Source: Photorhabdus noenieputensis (GTDB lineage Bacteria; Pseudomonadota; Gammaproteobacteria; Enterobacterales; Enterobacteriaceae). From it: 64,000 bases of DNA. Both the position numbers and the translations under genes were made by a program. Every line of letters begins with the position of its first letter. Within the stretch, counting starts at the first letter, position 1. Where the stretch lies: positions 124,001 through 188,000 of the forward strand of contig NZ_RCWC01000001.1 in NCBI RefSeq assembly GCF_018448935.1. The letters run 5' to 3'. Below, one piece after another: positions 25,085 through 34,252 of the stretch. A model generated the notes under the pieces. That model made no database searches. It saw only the letters and a program-made list of their open reading frames with translations, and was not told where the DNA came from.

Positions 25085-26245
25085 CTAAGCAGAGGGTTCG
25101 ATGAAGTTAACATCCGACCATACAGAAATAACGGCGACAGCCCGGGCTAGCCCGCCAGCACCGTCAGTCTTCAATAGAACCGGTACCACAGACAGTTGCG
25201 TTGAAGCGGTATAACTGTCGTCTCCGAGCTTAACATATCTCGATTCCTCCCCTGTACCTCGGTGCCCGGTACTGAGTGATAAGGGTTTATTGGCAAAATC
25301 GAAGAACGCGAAGGCGACCTGATCTATTGACGAGGCCAGCGCATGCGGTTTGCCCGGCACGAACGGTCCATCGATCCGGTAGAGCAGGCGTGAATTTTGG
25401 AATACCTCGTCATCACCGGAACAGGTGCTGTTTATCCTGATCTGTCTGGCCGATGCCAGTGTATCTCCCGCCTGTTTACCGGCTCTTTTCACCGTTCCCC
25501 AATCCACCGATGACGGAGTAAGAACTACCGCACAGGTGGACGGCTTTTTGACCGGTGAGAGGATGACCGTGGTCCACAGGGGTTTCAGCATGCCGTTGGA
25601 ACCCGATACGGCCGTTGGAGTCCAACCGATCGCGCCAACTGACAAATGACTTCCACCCGGTTTTGCATTGAAATTCCCGTCATTGTCCGGGTAAATTGCC
25701 CCGGTCACCGAGCGGACACTGATATCAACCAGACCGTTGGCATCTGGAACGCAGGGAATGTTAACGCCGGTATTCCCTTTGACCAGACTGGCTGATTGAT
25801 AGGTATTGGGTGAACCATGCGTCTGGCAAGAGAGTGAAGATTGCCCGATATCAACCATAAAATCGCCCGCATTTCCTACCCGGACGCTACTCGGTGAAGA
25901 CAAAGAGATCAATGAGCCGGTTCCCGATCCCACGGTGTAGGCCATCAACTGCGTCCCGGTGGGGACGCGACAAGTTGCCGACCAGTCAAGAGGGCCACTG
26001 GTGGTATAACCCACTATTTCATCCCGTGAATAATCACGCTTATCTTTGTTGTTCGGCATCATGGCATAGCCGGTGACGGTAACATTGCTCACCTTATTCA
26101 CCAGTTCAGTCTCGCAGTCCTGATAATTCTCTGTTGCTTGGAGCGGCAAAGAGGTTAATAAAAAGAGCAATGATACCCCTAGACTCATGATGGTTGGAGC
26201 TTGATTCTCTACATTACCGCCCCATAAATGTTTAGTGTTTAACAT
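25085..26245 (-). CDS. Fimbrial tip adhesin candidate
   Basis: Last gene of the fimbrial operon; 386 residues if started at 26245, where GGAG lies nine bases upstream. The open frame continues to an ATG at 26410 overlapping the usher, but that adds a signal-less basic stretch. A hydrophobic export signal (VSLLFLLTSLPLQA) precedes the mature NYQDCETELV. The N-terminal half is unlike pilins and may bind a receptor. From about residue 250, STCAVVLTPSSVDWGTV starts a pilin-type domain, with a second Cys in NSTCSGDD. The two-domain plan and the position after the usher fit a tip adhesin. The ligand is unknown. Confidence 0.7.
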   Translation of the reverse strand: MLNTKHLWGGNVENQAPTIMSLGVSLLFLLTSLPLQATENYQDCETELVNKVSNVTVTGYAMMPNNKDKRDYSRDEIVGYTTSGPLDWSATCRVPTGTQLMAYTVGSGTGSLISLSSPSSVRVGNAGDFMVDIGQSSLSCQTHGSPNTYQSASLVKGNTGVNIPCVPDANGLVDISVRSVTGAIYPDNDGNFNAKPGGSHLSVGAIGWTPTAVSGSNGMLKPLWTTVILSPVKKPSTCAVVLTPSSVDWGTVKRAGKQAGDTLASARQIRINSTCSGDDEVFQNSRLLYRIDGPFVPGKPHALASSIDQVAFAFFDFANKPLSLSTGHRGTGEESRYVKLGDDSYTASTQLSVVPVLLKTDGAGGLARAVAVISVWSDVNFIEPSA

Positions 26246-26393
26246 CCTTCTTCTCTCCAAATTATTCATCTGTTCAAATCGCTTGTTTAACTTCTGGGAA
26301 TAACATCTCTTTTGGCTATGTCCCAGATGCAAAAGCGATACAGGTGATATTTCACTGGGCATACAGATCATGGTGCCCATATGAGGGTCACGC

Positions 26394-29036
26394 TTATAGA
26401 CATACGGCATCGGCCTGCACCAGTTTCCCGAGGGTATCGGATGACACCTGATAACGGGTGGTGCATTGTTGATCTGTCCCGTTTCCCCATTTAACTTTCA
26501 CATGACCGGCGGACGGCATGCCGCTCAGATAAACCCGGCCGTTATCACCCACAATGCCGCTGCTGGCTTGGGTTGCGTTTCCTGCCAGCGTTGCGGTGGC
26601 ACCAAAGGGCACGGGTTTGCCATGATGTGTCAAGGTCAGCAGCAACTGGCTGCCCAGTCGAACCTGATAATTAGCCAGCGTCACCGCCCCTTTGGTCGGG
26701 TAAACGTTGCGGCTGGTCTGATCAATATCGACCCCTTCCGGCAGGGTGGACGGGTCCAGATTGATGGTGTTTTTGTGGTAGACCGAACCGCCCGGCAGCA
26801 CAGCATAGCCACGCCAGTCGGTCTGTACGTTGCCGTTGCTGACTGTCACCCCTTTCGCCCCGGGTGCGCGAACTAATACCGCAGTATCCCCCAACGAACG
26901 TGACAGCGTTATCCCGTAAGGATGGATCAAAAGGGCACCGGACGTGCCATAGGTAACATGCTGGCTGTTTGCGCTGTCGTTGTAACCCAGATTAACGCTC
27001 CCCTGACTGCCCTGATAACCTAGCGACAGGGACCGGCTGTTTTGCTGGCCGCTGTGCCCCCAGCCTTGTTGGAGGTTATAACTCAGGCGGTTATCCCATA
27101 ACATGCCACTGATGCCGGTCTGCTGAGAGAGGTTACCCTGTGAGTCGCGCGAGGCGGTATAGCGGGTGTAAACGCCCCGTAATGCCGACGATGATCCAAA
27201 GAGACTCAGCGGAACCTGCATATTGAATGATACCTGACGGTTTTCCGGCCAGTGGCCCTCGCCCTTTATACGAGAAATGTTGTAACTCAGGTTATAGCTG
27301 ATCCCCATCAGCATCGCGTTGTAACCCAGACTCAGGTTGTTGTCGGTACGGCCATTCCAATAATCATTACGCGTCCCGGAGGCATAAAGACTGCCCCAGC
27401 GTCCCAGTGTCTGACGCAGGTTCACCTGCCAGGTGTTCTGACGCCGCTCAAGCGCCCACGGCACCTGATATTCATTCAGGCTGTAGCCCATGCTGTTAGC
27501 ATCACTGAAACTGTAGTAATGCTGGGTGGAGTAGCGGTAGGCGGCCAGATCAATGCCGGTGCCGGTACTGATCAAGTTTTTGGAATATTTCACGCGATAA
27601 GACTGGCCGAATTGCCCGCTCTCTTCCTGATCCTTGTTCCCCTGCAACTGTGCGCGGGCCAGCGTCACATCCGCAGACAGTGCGCCGAATGCCCCCAGCG
27701 AAACCCCCGAACCTAATACACCCGACTGGTAGTTGCCAGCGACCAATCCCCCGCCGTACAAGGTGATACTGTTGGGTAAACCATAGACCAGCGTACCCAT
27801 CGCAAATACCGGGGAACGGTTGCCATTGGTCAGGCTGCCGCCGTGATATTGACCGGTCGTTAATTCATATTTAATGCCCCCGGGACGTTGCATCACCGGC
27901 AGGGACGAAGAGGCTATTGTAGAAACACGGGTACGGCCATTTTCCTCTTTGATGGTCACCGTCAGATCGCCCGCACTCCCGGTGGTATAGAGGTCGGTGA
28001 AACGAAACGGCCCCGGAGCCACCGTGGTTTGATACACGATATTGCCATTCTGGGATACCGTCACTTGCGCATTCGAGTTCGCCACACCGGTTATCTCCGG
28101 GGCAAAACCGCGCTGACTGTCGGGTAACATCGCCTCCTCAGAAGCCAGTTTCATACCACGAAATGGGATACTGTCAAAAATATCGCCACCGGTATAGGTT
28201 TCACCCGCCGTGAACTCACTGCGCAGTGAGGGGATATCACGTTGCAGATAGGTATTACTCACCTGCCATTGGGTCTGTGCTGGCGTGGAAAAACCGGAGA
28301 TGCCCTCGTTGCGCTGACGATTGTAACTGTAAGTTTGTGTACTGCGCAGACGCCACGGCCCCAGATTCAACCCGTTACGAAAAGAAGCAAACAGATTACG
28401 GGAATGTGATCCTCCCCAATTTCCCTGACCGTCATAACGCCCTTCCGAACCATTGACGGTGTAATTCATCAAAAAGGCCGGGATGCCGTTATCCCACAGT
28501 GACGGATCAACCATCCCGGAATAGTGGGGTTGCATGGCGACCTGCGGGACACTGAGATCCAGACGCAAACGGGCGAAATCCAGTGTTGCGCGGGCGTGCG
28601 GGATCTGTTTTGTCAGATCGGTGATGAGGCTGTCGTCCGCTTTACCCTTAAAAGCGGGTAATCCGTGGGTATTGACTCCATACCCTTCCAGTTGTGCGAC
28701 GGTTAATACCGGCTGGAGATGGCCGTTAACCAGCCTGAATTCGATCTCGCGGTTGTCCACCTTATTCTGGTTCATGTAGATATCGACCAGATAGCGCCCG
28801 GGTGCGACATAGCCCGCGTTTTCATACGCCGAGAGATCGACATGACTGCGTTCACCATCCGCGCCCATCAGGAATGCGGGATTAAAGTATTCCCGCGCCG
28901 AGGCGGGCAAGGTCGTTGCCGTCAGTGAACACAGCAGACATAGGTATACCGGCCGGGGCCGGAAACTGCCCGGTTGACCGGACGCACGTTGGTTACCCGT
29001 CCGCAGTGCAGACGGAAATAAAGTGTTTATTGCCAT
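26394..29036 (-). CDS. Fimbrial outer-membrane usher (FimD/PapC family)
   Basis: An 880-residue usher that receives chaperone-subunit complexes and forms the outer-membrane pore for pilus assembly. A signal peptide ends TTLPASA, then the N-terminal domain REYFNPAFL ... DLSAYENAG ... GRYLVDIYMN is typical. The barrel contains FRGMKLASEEAMLPDSQRGF and VTVSQNGNIVYQTTVAPGPF with the plug domain. C-terminal domains have GNAT-like repeats of polar beta strands and end in QQCTTRYQ. Length is within the family's 800-900. GC content is visibly higher than in the flanking housekeeping genes. Confidence 0.95.
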   Translation of the reverse strand: MAINTLFPSALRTGNQRASGQPGSFRPRPVYLCLLCSLTATTLPASAREYFNPAFLMGADGERSHVDLSAYENAGYVAPGRYLVDIYMNQNKVDNREIEFRLVNGHLQPVLTVAQLEGYGVNTHGLPAFKGKADDSLITDLTKQIPHARATLDFARLRLDLSVPQVAMQPHYSGMVDPSLWDNGIPAFLMNYTVNGSEGRYDGQGNWGGSHSRNLFASFRNGLNLGPWRLRSTQTYSYNRQRNEGISGFSTPAQTQWQVSNTYLQRDIPSLRSEFTAGETYTGGDIFDSIPFRGMKLASEEAMLPDSQRGFAPEITGVANSNAQVTVSQNGNIVYQTTVAPGPFRFTDLYTTGSAGDLTVTIKEENGRTRVSTIASSSLPVMQRPGGIKYELTTGQYHGGSLTNGNRSPVFAMGTLVYGLPNSITLYGGGLVAGNYQSGVLGSGVSLGAFGALSADVTLARAQLQGNKDQEESGQFGQSYRVKYSKNLISTGTGIDLAAYRYSTQHYYSFSDANSMGYSLNEYQVPWALERRQNTWQVNLRQTLGRWGSLYASGTRNDYWNGRTDNNLSLGYNAMLMGISYNLSYNISRIKGEGHWPENRQVSFNMQVPLSLFGSSSALRGVYTRYTASRDSQGNLSQQTGISGMLWDNRLSYNLQQGWGHSGQQNSRSLSLGYQGSQGSVNLGYNDSANSQHVTYGTSGALLIHPYGITLSRSLGDTAVLVRAPGAKGVTVSNGNVQTDWRGYAVLPGGSVYHKNTINLDPSTLPEGVDIDQTSRNVYPTKGAVTLANYQVRLGSQLLLTLTHHGKPVPFGATATLAGNATQASSGIVGDNGRVYLSGMPSAGHVKVKWGNGTDQQCTTRYQVSSDTLGKLVQADAVCL

Positions 29037-31265: not shown

Positions 31266-31984
31266 TACGGTATCTCCCCTTTATAGGATGATGATCCTCC
31301 GAGGTCATTAATCACCGTCCAGCTCACTTTGGCCGGGTAATGTACCCCCTTGAGCGGGAAAGACAGCGCTGAGAACGGGGAAACCATGTTCTCTTTCTGT
31401 TGTTTCGTCATCAGCTCCTGTCCGCCCACTTTCAGGGAGGTGAAGGTGATGTAATAGGGTGACGGGTTGGTGACCGTTATCCCCTCGGCTGTTGGTTTGA
31501 AGCGTAGTGAACCAAATCCTTGCTCCGGCGCAACCGACAGTCCGTGTGGGCGATACATCAATTTAATTGTGTTAGCCATAGCAATCTGTATGCCCCCGGT
31601 GACTTGCTGACGGGAGGGATTGTCGATTTCAGGGCTTAACGGGATGGCTTGCGCGGTAAACCAGAACAGGGATTCCCGGTCGGCGGGCAGTGCTTGTCCG
31701 GTTTTGATGATGCGTACTTGATTCTGAGTGTCTGGCTCTAGGCGAAACAGGGGAGGAGTCACTACAAATGGAGCGGCCTTCTTTCGCTCAGGATCGGCAC
31801 TGACCGCCACCTGCATCAAGTAGGCAGCTTTCTTACTGCTATTGCGCACTGAGGTTGACGCTGCGTGGCTGTCAGTCTGGTAGATAATGCGAGTAGTATC
31901 AATACTTACCCCGCCAGCCATAGCATCGGTGACCGTGCAGCCCAGCAGACCGGTCACTATCATCGCTGTCATCAATTTTTTCAT
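31265..31984 (-). CDS. Periplasmic fimbrial chaperone, first of the operon
   Basis: A 239-residue PapD-like chaperone with signal peptide ending DAMA and mature GGVSIDTTRIIYQTD. It has PPLFRLEPDTQNQVRI, DRESLFWFTAQAIP and the linker NTIKLMYRPHGL. The C-terminal Ig-like domain ends WTVINDLGGSS. It follows the major pilin after a 117-bp gap holding a hairpin and overlaps the minor pilin by 1 bp. It is likely the chaperone for the main subunit. Confidence 0.92.
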   Translation of the reverse strand: MKKLMTAMIVTGLLGCTVTDAMAGGVSIDTTRIIYQTDSHAASTSVRNSSKKAAYLMQVAVSADPERKKAAPFVVTPPLFRLEPDTQNQVRIIKTGQALPADRESLFWFTAQAIPLSPEIDNPSRQQVTGGIQIAMANTIKLMYRPHGLSVAPEQGFGSLRFKPTAEGITVTNPSPYYITFTSLKVGGQELMTKQQKENMVSPFSALSFPLKGVHYPAKVSWTVINDLGGSSSYKGEIP

Positions 31985-32025
31985 TGATCCACCTGAAAGT
32001 GTCTGTTTTGGTATTACGTAAACAA

Positions 32026-32049
32026 GAATTGGACTTCCCTGTCCAATTC
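32026..32049 (-). other. Stem-loop between major pilin and chaperone
   Basis: GAATTGGAC (32026-32034) and GTCCAATTC (32041-32049) are perfect 9-bp arms with a TTCCCT loop. In - strand orientation it is followed by TTGTTTACG. Stem-loops here in other fimbrial operons reduce readthrough or protect pilin mRNA, so the pilin is made in excess. The function is inferred here. Confidence 0.65.
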
Positions 32050-32101
32050 CACTGCTATTCTGTTCCTTGCGCCTGACGGCGTTGATTAGCTATAAATTTG
32101 A

Positions 32102-32665
32102 TTATCGAGTAACTAGTTGAAAAGTCAGTGGTACACTGACACTCTCCCCAGTTTTGACTTTCGAAATGTCCTTAGCAACCAGCCCCACGGTAAAATCTTT
32201 TTTCGCACCAACAAAAGGATCACCTAGGTCAGCCAGTTGAACTTTTGCGTCTGTTTCCAGAAGGCCGGGGGTACCCTTCACTTCCAAGCCCACTGCTATG
32301 CTACCGGCAGCGGCACCACCCTTACCAAAGTATTTTTTCCCATCTGCGGTATTTGTCCCCATAATTTTCAAATCAACGTTTCGTTTCATGTTACCTGCTA
32401 GATCGACCTCGGCTGCACAGCCTGTTAGTGAAACAGTGAAATTCTGAGGACTGACTAAGGCGTTGTTGGCAACAAAATTAGCCGATGAAACAGAGCCCAG
32501 TTTGATACCGGGTTTGTCGATGTCGAGTGCACAAGTCGGTGCTCCTATAGAACCTGACACGACTACCGACGCACTATCACCGATATCAGCAGCATGTGCC
32601 ATTCCCATCCCCATACTCAGGAGCACTGCGGCTAATACGCTGGTCTTCAAAATTTGCTTTTTCAT
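32102..32665 (-). CDS. Major fimbrial subunit (FimA-type pilin)
   Basis: A 187-residue type 1-like pilin. ATG 32665 has AAGGA nine bases upstream. The signal peptide ends MAHA, then ADIGDSASVVVSGSIGAPTC begins the mature protein. The disulfide pair is C in GAPTCALDI and C in LTGCAAEV. The C-terminal strand SVPLTFQLVTR fits the penultimate-aromatic beta zipper only loosely. Base composition looks closer to the host than that of the GC-rich genes downstream. Transcription is expected from the putative invertible promoter at 32767-33080. Confidence 0.93.
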   Translation of the reverse strand: MKKQILKTSVLAAVLLSMGMGMAHAADIGDSASVVVSGSIGAPTCALDIDKPGIKLGSVSSANFVANNALVSPQNFTVSLTGCAAEVDLAGNMKRNVDLKIMGTNTADGKKYFGKGGAAAGSIAVGLEVKGTPGLLETDAKVQLADLGDPFVGAKKDFTVGLVAKDISKVKTGESVSVPLTFQLVTR

Positions 32666-32766
32666 TTCATCTATTCCTTATCTACATCTATTTACATACA
32701 TTTTGCCTAAAACAACACCATGACAGATTAAACAGCCGGGCCGCTGAGGCGGTGCGTTTACTGGTC

Positions 32767-32791
32767 ATTTAGAGTTATTTTGTTTGGTTAT
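32767..32791 (+). repeat. Left inverted repeat of the switch element
   Basis: The 25-bp arm begins ATTTAGAGTTATTTTG and ends GGTTAT. It equals the reverse complement of 33056-33080 at 24 of 25 positions; the difference is T32785 opposite a C in the partner. The match ends sharply at both outer and inner ends. Confidence 0.9.
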
Positions 32792-33010
32792 TAACTTGAT
32801 GAAATATATGAATATAAATATTCACTTAATGAGATCACTTGTGACTTATGCCATTTGGTTTCAGGATTTCTGCCTTTGGTATGAGAAAATGAATATTGAA
32901 TTGCTTAAAAAGCGAGCTTTAAACGGGCTGTAATATCCGTAATGAAAGAAATAATTTCCATTTGAAATCAAAAAATTAAGTAATTTTTTACAAAAAAATA
33001 CAAAAAATCT

Positions 33011-33039
33011 CTTTTAAGTGATGAAATTTTCCGTATACT
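33011..33039 (+). promoter_or_regulatory. Candidate promoter inside the invertible element
   Basis: A good -10 box TATACT (33034-33039) lies 17 bp after CTTTTA (33011-33016), a weak -35. It directs transcription to the right, away from the pilin. If the element flips it would face the pilin and give a leader of about 135 nt. Confidence 0.5.
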
Positions 33040-33055
33040 GCCCCGGCGGTTGAAG

Positions 33056-33080
33056 ATAACCGAACAAAATAACTCTAAAT
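33056..33080 (-). repeat. Right inverted repeat of the switch element
   Basis: Begins ATAACCGAACAAAATAAC and ends CTCTAAAT; it pairs with 32767-32791 with one mismatch. It defines the right boundary of the 314-bp element. Confidence 0.9.
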
Positions 33081-33395
33081 ATTCGGTTTTTTGTCCCATA
33101 TCAGAAACTGGTGTCATTCAAAGCCACACCACCACTTTTAGTAACGTTTTTCCTCACTCTTACACCTTTTCACCCTTGCGCAGAAACACGAATCTCCAGA
33201 ATCGCAAAAGCATTACATTAATTATTTTTATCAATTTCGATATTGAAGGAATTGATTGAGGACTGATATCAGGTTCGTTTTGAGCCATCATCTTCAATTC
33301 ACTCTGTATTGAAATTGACCGGCATTGTGCGGACATATTGAGTTGAGTTTTGAAAGGTGCCCTGAGTAAGTTGTTCTGTGTTTGTCATACAATCT

Positions 33396-33539
33396 TCACA
33401 ACAAACTATCGTGGTAAACCATGCGACGGCGGGATGATAGAACAATGGCCAGTGGCTGTTTATCGCCGTAGCGGATAAATTGCTTGGGGGAATAATCGTT
33501 TTTTTCTTTTTCTATCAATAAATTAATGATAGCGTTCAA
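33396..33539 (-). CDS. Possible short gene or gene remnant, 47 codons, no ATG
   Basis: An open frame starting at TTG 33539 and ending at TGA 33396-33398 reads as a natural-looking peptide, with SPKQFIRYGDKQPLAIVL and SSRRRMVYHDSLL. No ATG is present before the late MVYHD and no convincing ribosome-binding site is seen. It could be the 3' remnant of a regulator lost between the fimbrial switch and the DUF2975 gene. I do not recognise the family. The rest of 33081-33673 shows no supported gene. Confidence 0.3.
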   Translation of the reverse strand: MNAIINLLIEKEKNDYSPKQFIRYGDKQPLAIVLSSRRRMVYHDSLL

Positions 33540-33673
33540 TGATTATCACTCTGATTTATCTATCACCTTGAAGCATAATCTGTCTATTTAGTGATAAAAA
33601 ATTATTGTAATACGATAATTTTTGAAGTACTTTAACGAAAGTTTAGTTAAACATGTATATGGAATGACACAAA

Positions 33674-34252
33674 ATGTGTGGTGAACAGGAGTTTGTAACT
33701 AATCCCAGAATCAAGCTACTCAGCTTTCTGGCTATTATTATTGCTTCCATTATGATAATTGGTGATTTGGGGTTCCATATTATTTCTTGGTCGTTAGAGT
33801 ATGATGCCACTCGCCAGGCCGTTCTTCAGGCATATAGCGATCTTATGCCTGCATTGACTGCAAAAGGATTTAAGCAATCTTTATTAAGTCAGGTGCTTTA
33901 TATTTCGTTGGATACGATACCTTTAATCATATCGACCGCTTCTTATATATTAATAGGAATTTTATTTTTCCGGCTTGCGAAAGGTGAAATATGGAGTGAC
34001 CGTAATATTTCCGCTTCATTTATTATTGGTTTCCTGATGATTCTAGAGCAACTCCTCTACCCTGTGATTAATATGTTACAAGGAATGGCATTATCTGTAG
34101 ATTTGGTAAAAGGACAACGGGTGTTTAGTTTCTCATTTGGTGTTAATTCAGAGTCTTTGTTTATTATTATGTTTGGTGTATTCCTCCTGATATTTAGCTT
34201 AATTATGCGTGAATCTAAGAAAATAAGCGATGAGCAGCGTTATTTTATCTGA
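33674..34252 (+). CDS. DUF2975-type integral membrane protein
   Basis: A 192-residue protein with four hydrophobic segments at about 14-38, 72-98, 112-135 and 160-184. The pattern FFRLAKGEIWSDRNISA between helices two and three is the kind seen in DUF2975 proteins, which are often encoded beside a small Xre-type regulator. That is the case here: the HTH gene begins 8 bp after this stop. The region is AT-rich. The function is unknown; the family call is by pattern. Confidence 0.7.
   Translation: MCGEQEFVTNPRIKLLSFLAIIIASIMIIGDLGFHIISWSLEYDATRQAVLQAYSDLMPALTAKGFKQSLLSQVLYISLDTIPLIISTASYILIGILFFRLAKGEIWSDRNISASFIIGFLMILEQLLYPVINMLQGMALSVDLVKGQRVFSFSFGVNSESLFIIMFGVFLLIFSLIMRESKKISDEQRYFI

Follow-up and report, generated by a model that had tools for sequence, protein, structure and literature searches.

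The window, that is, the whole stretch of 64,000 nucleotides of Photorhabdus noenieputensis DNA analysed here, carries a pair of long inverted repeats just upstream of the major pilin gene of a fimbrial operon. In our estimation (probability about 0.8), the element that they delimit represents a promoter-inversion phase-variation switch of a seven-gene chaperone-usher operon, the invertase being encoded elsewhere; judging from its sequence, it is probably a functional switch, separate from mad and mrf, and resting mostly in the OFF state.

The mechanism that we infer would be the following. A FimB-type tyrosine invertase from elsewhere in the genome would recombine the two arms of 25-26 bp. 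As assembled, the putative promoter near the right arm would face away from the pilin, and the OFF transcript would probably end at a hairpin and T-run across that arm; inversion would move the -10 box to about 32808-32813 (by arithmetic), facing the pilin (ON), with a leader of ~136 nt. An earlier note on this DNA had proposed an invertible promoter in front of the operon: its account of the layout, of the OFF state and of the distinction from mad is borne out, whereas the inversion itself is something that we infer.

The inverted repeat and the fimbrial operon

The element is located between the fimbrial operon, transcribed leftward, and a rightward gene of 192 aa with no Pfam match; translations inspected by eye suggest nadC and ampE as the neighbours at one end of this interval, with pdhR and aceE at its other end. 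The features are listed below (positions in the window).

25085..26410, minus strand: tip protein, probable from its position, of at most 441 aa
26394..29036, minus strand: outer-membrane usher, 880 aa
29119..29901, minus strand: periplasmic chaperone 3, 260 aa
29932..30666, minus strand: periplasmic chaperone 2, 244 aa
30693..31265, minus strand: minor pilin, 190 aa
31265..31984, minus strand: periplasmic chaperone 1, 239 aa
32102..32665, minus strand: major pilin, first gene, 187 aa
32741..32752, minus strand: CCGC-loop-GCGG motif in the presumed pilin leader, in 10/10 loci, loop variable (alignment by eye)
32767..32791, plus strand: left arm, pilin side, ATTTAGAGTTATTTTGTTTGGTTAT (repeat detection, alignment)
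32792..33055, no strand: inner segment, 264 bp, lowest conservation in its left part (86/159 columns invariant)
32966..32978, plus strand: IHF-like match AATCAAAAAATTA, at position 175 of the inner segment
33005..33040, plus strand: conserved promoter-like block with TATACT (33034-33039), 29/36 columns invariant, no clear -35
33056..33080, plus strand: right arm, ATAACCGAACAAAATAACTCTAAAT (repeat detection, alignment)
33058..33092, plus strand: hairpin AACCGAA...TTCGGTT, then a T-run, in the right arm and its outer flank (alignment, folding)

The two arms, of 25 nt each, are complementary at 24 of 25 positions (96%) and enclose 264 bp, for a whole element of 314 bp; the repeats had been described in the earlier note with exactly these positions. 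What is found is, in other words, the arrangement of the fimS kind, with near-perfect inverted repeats flanking a short intergenic segment 5' of a pilin gene. The repeat score of 22 is the best within the surrounding 2 kb; 500 dinucleotide-preserving shuffles of these 2 kb averaged 10.1 and never exceeded 15, and the second-best pair of the whole 64-kb window scores only 14; the repeat thus exceeds chance by far. At eight other scanned loci, the repeat has one extra C at its start.

All seven reading frames of the operon are open and encode, from 5' to 3', a pilin, a chaperone, a minor pilin, two chaperones, the usher, and the tip protein, the three chaperones being of the PapD type. Neither Pfam nor NCBIfam gave a match to the tip protein (at 0.001), and nor, at 1e-10, did 118 other genomes of the family (one per genus). 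The window contains no invertase, as none of the 13 PF00589 matches of the genome falls there; an invertase gene beside the switch, a usual (not required) feature, is absent, and this, in turn, implies that inversion would have to act in trans. The gene content attributed to the operon at the outset (seven genes, three of them for chaperones, and no recombinase in the window) was reproduced in every respect.

The TATACT box lies on the plus strand, 16 nt ahead of the right arm, and points away from the pilin. What the segment contains by way of a promoter is a conserved block around this box, without a clear -35 (no good one was seen by eye), without a match at the block in the consensus promoter scan, and with a scan at chance level over positions 31900-33700 (four matches, against a mean of 4.8 in shuffles). 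The position and direction of the -10 box claimed in the earlier note are therefore confirmed, but a -35 and the promoter scan do not lend it support. The box reads TATACT in nine of the ten known copies of the element (that of the window among them); P. heterorhabditis has TATACC. Within the inner segment, AATCAAAAAATTA matches the IHF consensus, WATCAANNNNTTR; the match is full in four of eight loci, AATCAA is present in all eight, and no full match was found in the mad-type or mrf-type segment of the same genome.

At the other side of the right arm, the sequence directly outside it (TTCGGTTTTTT) is invariant in 10/10 loci and is kept by P. heterorhabditis although its flank farther out has diverged. 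The hairpin formed there has a folding energy of -6.1 kcal/mol in the window copy, against -10.7 to -15.3 in the other nine copies; position 33081 is A in the former and G in the latter. Against shuffles, the window-copy hairpin is not significant (z -0.5 and -1.1), whereas those of two relatives, the sole two tested, stand out (z -3.3 and -4.2). The terminator scan, which covers loops of 3-8 only, returned no hairpin at the right arm, and no comparable partner was seen in the left flank. The hairpin might act as an OFF-state terminator, as paired recombinase half-sites, or as both: its symmetry can alternatively be read as that of a pair of invertase half-sites in inverted arrangement (AACCGAAC and GTTCGGTT). 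The T-run that follows it favours a terminator, with which the half-site reading is compatible.

The mad-type and mrf-type loci and the candidate invertases

The genome harbors six usher loci, three of which have such a repeat pair; in the 18-20 kb around each of the remaining three, two have no repeat pair and one has an AT-rich pair with 15 matches. The mad switch of Photorhabdus was reportedly described by Somvanshi et al. in 2010 and 2012, and we take a GrlA-like gene, madJ, to be the mark of mad; the name that we give to the locus on contig C20 rests on this feature. The C20 mad-type operon has a CaiF/GrlA-type gene ~10 kb from its switch and an adjacent invertase, and its arms (TTAGGACCATTTTGACTATCAAAATA, beginning with TTAGGACCATTTTGAC) enclose 265 bp, for a total of 317 bp. 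The CaiF/GrlA-type gene occurs once per genome in 12/12 genomes of the genus, each time ~10 kb from the mad-type switch; the invertase side of the locus matches in 12/12 and the arm pair was found in 11/12, with inner parts of 258 bp (genome G007) to 268 bp at these 11 loci. In PMC5903667, the size of the mad element is printed in two ways, as 257 bp and as 266 bp without the repeats.

The third repeat pair belongs to a locus on contig C32, with an arm AAACCAAACAAAATGCACCAAACTGT whose partner differs slightly, 267 bp between the two (319 bp in total), and an adjoining invertase. By its features, this is presumably mrf, the locus of the mannose-resistant fimbriae of Photorhabdus, whose invertase is MrpI-like. 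G007 has a second mrf-like locus at 448 kb (L107, 7834-8972), complete with a repeat pair and a 190-aa invertase of its own; a match of this kind occurs in 4/12 genomes.

The arm size and spacing of the window element match those of the mad-type and mrf-type elements; the layout, which the earlier note likened to fimS and mad, holds. We give hardly any credence to the possibility that the element is the mad switch itself or a copy of it, and we rejected this identity. The layout is the same, the size is nearly equal, and mad is the known fimbrial switch of Photorhabdus, but the CaiF/GrlA-type locus is a separate one in 12/12 genomes, its arm pair, a different one, was found in 11/12, and the ushers are 49% identical, even if equating C20 with mad leans on madJ being GrlA-like. 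At the window element, the mad arm sequence TTAGGACCATTTTGAC is absent and the operon includes no GrlA-like regulator; the difference in gene set from mad, already claimed in the earlier note, is that from a separate C20 locus with arms, an invertase and a CaiF/GrlA-type gene of its own. Likewise, an adjacent MrpI-type invertase and the mrf operon are absent from the window element, the mrf-type locus being on C32.

A genome-wide search for FimB/FimE-type recombinases, as advised in the earlier note, yielded three FimB-type invertases, none of them near the window element: those on C20 (mad) and C32 (mrf), which pass the NCBIfam cut-off for 'tyrosine-type DNA invertase', and one on C12 (L045, 9767-10387). 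The latter is 75% identical to the C20 enzyme, has no likely switch repeat beside its gene, and has matches in 12/12 genus genomes. A PF00589 gene on C19 was discarded as a FimB-type invertase, being 24-28% identical to the other three.

The arms of the window element were compared with the mrf and mad arms of the same genome, against 5000 shuffles. On the other strand of the left arm, a 13-bp half-site, AACCAAACAAAAT, recurs unchanged within the mrf left arm; the likeness to this mrf arm was equalled in 9/5000 shuffles for the window left arm and in 66/5000 for the right one, that to the other mrf arm in 1694/5000 (left) and 182/5000 (right), and that to the mad arms in 1235-1666 of 5000. Since the likeness to mrf is not uniform and several comparisons were made, it is suggestive only; through the shared half-site, it would make the mrf invertase the lead candidate, with the C12 and mad invertases as alternatives. 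The presence or absence of the candidates does not separate them, because mad-type and mrf-type matches occur in 12/12 genomes. The relatives of these invertases in other genera (22 loci, nine of them with any repeat pair, best half-site likeness 10/13) brought no confirmation. Invertases of this kind act on distant switches in E. coli CFT073, according to PMC6083910. A tentative extension, rather doubtful as it stands, is that the mrf invertase drives two switches, whose shared 13-bp half-site and different central bases would permit common flipping without recombination between them, the OFF state of the second being sealed by a terminator made of arm and fixed flank.

Distribution, conservation and orientation in Photorhabdus

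Eight of the 12 genus genomes match the 701-bp query in some part, and six (the one under study included) harbor the element with both arms, at eight loci. The exact arm pattern was present in nine stretches of named genomes; five were taken as already counted (P. luminescens DSM 3368, CRCIA-P01, two in P. namnaonensis, and P. caribbeanensis) and two were new (P. heterorhabditis SF41 and P. akhurstii DSM 15138), which brings the total to ten distinct loci in eight genomes. The other two stretches are single-arm matches (L058 and L059) on Pelagibacteraceae and Betaproteobacteria contigs, and are probably due to chance. Another site resembling the arms, on contig C17 of the genome under study, was rejected, as it sits within a reading frame of 457 aa.

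In the alignment of eight loci, each arm has 23/25 invariant columns and the TATACT block 29/36, compared with 164/264 in the inner segment, 74/100 in the left flank, and 73/188 in the far right flank; conservation is concentrated on the arms and the promoter block. The element is retained where the operon sits elsewhere, in G007 at 897 kb and on contig C79 of G009. Between nadC and pdhR, the genome under study, G001, G004, and G008 have a full-length copy; those of G007 and G009 at this place have short frames for pilin and usher, a full copy being elsewhere in the genome, and the full copy of G007 directly follows an mrf-type operon. P. akhurstii lacks a full pilin frame in its copy. In G005, a 252-bp usher remnant (L108, 5785-6036) lies between the 192-aa gene and ampE and shows decay of the operon at its usual place.

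In five further full copies (G001, G004, G007 at 897 kb, G008, and G009 on C79), the six non-pilin genes are 78-97% identical to those of the window. Pilin identity is only 30-64% where the sequences align, as compared for six other full pilins: those of the five copies plus that of P. heterorhabditis, two of which align only partly; it is as if the surface structure were under diversifying selection, or as if recombinational replacement had occurred, either of which would fit this variability.

A paralogous fimbrial operon was also observed (L037, 16364 onward, and L054; also L016, L019, L020, L021, and L024), in tandem with the full copy in G007 and on other contigs. No repeat pair was found upstream of its pilin, and a partial arm is present in three of six short loci (L020, L024, and L025); it is possibly a locked sister switch.

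With respect to its flanks, the inner segment has one and the same orientation in 10/10 copies (one assembly per species); for P. heterorhabditis, whose far flank is unaligned, the side was set by the conserved junction and the gene order. This orientation is the OFF one, as the earlier note had maintained, the promoter-like block facing away from the pilin. Two controls help in reading this count. The mrf-type copies have one orientation in 14/16 cases and are inverted in 2/16 (G008 and G011, loci L087 and L092, relative to the main mrf-type locus of ten other genomes); these two assemblies are natural evidence pointing to flipping of the mrf-type switch and imply that the comparison is able to detect an inversion. 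The mad-type copies also have one orientation in all 11 scorable cases, four of which rest on inner matches shorter than 60 bp, the twelfth copy being unscorable. Since mad is reported to invert, a single orientation cannot refute inversion. According to PMC5333078, the ON form of mad is seen during symbiosis only; a switch resting OFF in culture looks fixed in assemblies. The earlier note had advised comparing orientation across related genomes, with a single fixed one counting against inversion: this is literally what the ten copies have, but the 11 mad copies have it too, so that the outcome does not refute inversion.

The same count would also fit a frozen switch, in which an originally invertible promoter had been left without its invertase and was now locked OFF. 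We regard this as unlikely. In its favour, there is no local invertase, the copies are all in one orientation, the paralogous operon has one partial arm at most, and the short frames in G007 and G009, the incomplete pilin of P. akhurstii and the usher remnant of G005 point in the same direction. Against it, the arms and the promoter block are still conserved, as are the six other genes at 78-97% identity, the genome encodes three FimB-type invertases, and mad, reported to invert, is equally uniform.

More improbable still is a static regulatory region, in which the arms would serve as an operator or contribute to a terminator, with the promoter of the pilin outside the segment. It could appeal to a promoter-like pair facing the pilin at 33462-33434 on the minus strand and to the pairing of the right arm with its own flank into a hairpin, but the scan that gave the former is overall no better than chance, and the arm size and spacing match those of the mad-type and mrf-type elements. 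Inversion is favoured by the conservation of the left arm, which lacks an evident reason in a static segment, and by the length of the element, 314 bp compared with 317 bp (mad-type) and 319 bp (mrf-type) in the same genome. Taken together, we keep to an invertible promoter served in trans.

Comparison with known switches

Photorhabdus alternates between insect killing and life with its nematode, and the inversion of mad is reported to accompany this change (PMC5333078). If the window element flips, there would be a further switch, in 6/12 genomes and with no invertase of its own, so that surface states could combine, perhaps coupled via shared invertases; one would expect most cultured cells to keep the window operon silent. 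No report of this switch was found among the matches listed from the open-licence literature (titles and beginnings of abstracts), which does not establish its absence from print.

Like the mad-type elements, that of the window is intergenic, measures about 314-320 bp, has long arms (26-34 nt at mad-type loci), is assembled in one orientation, and has a promoter-like box, recognized by eye, beside the arm far from the pilin; unlike them, it has another arm sequence, and the adjacent 198-aa invertase and the CaiF/GrlA-type gene are both missing from its operon. With mrf, in the same genome, it shares the size and the identical AACCAAACAAAAT of the left arms, but this half-site is outermost in the mrf arm and innermost in the window arm, and the central bases differ; moreover, mrf has an adjacent 190-aa invertase and both orientations among the assemblies.

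As for other bacteria, cwpV of Clostridioides difficile resembles the window element in that, in its OFF state, an intrinsic terminator is predicted at an arm, whereas its transcription starts outside the inverted segment and the window promoter would be inside (PMC2784873). The fimS element of Escherichia coli is likewise an invertible promoter ahead of a fimbrial operon, but its repeats measure 9 bp, and it has fimB and fimE of its own nearby; FimX and IpuA, distant invertases, offer the precedent for action at a distance (PMC6083910).
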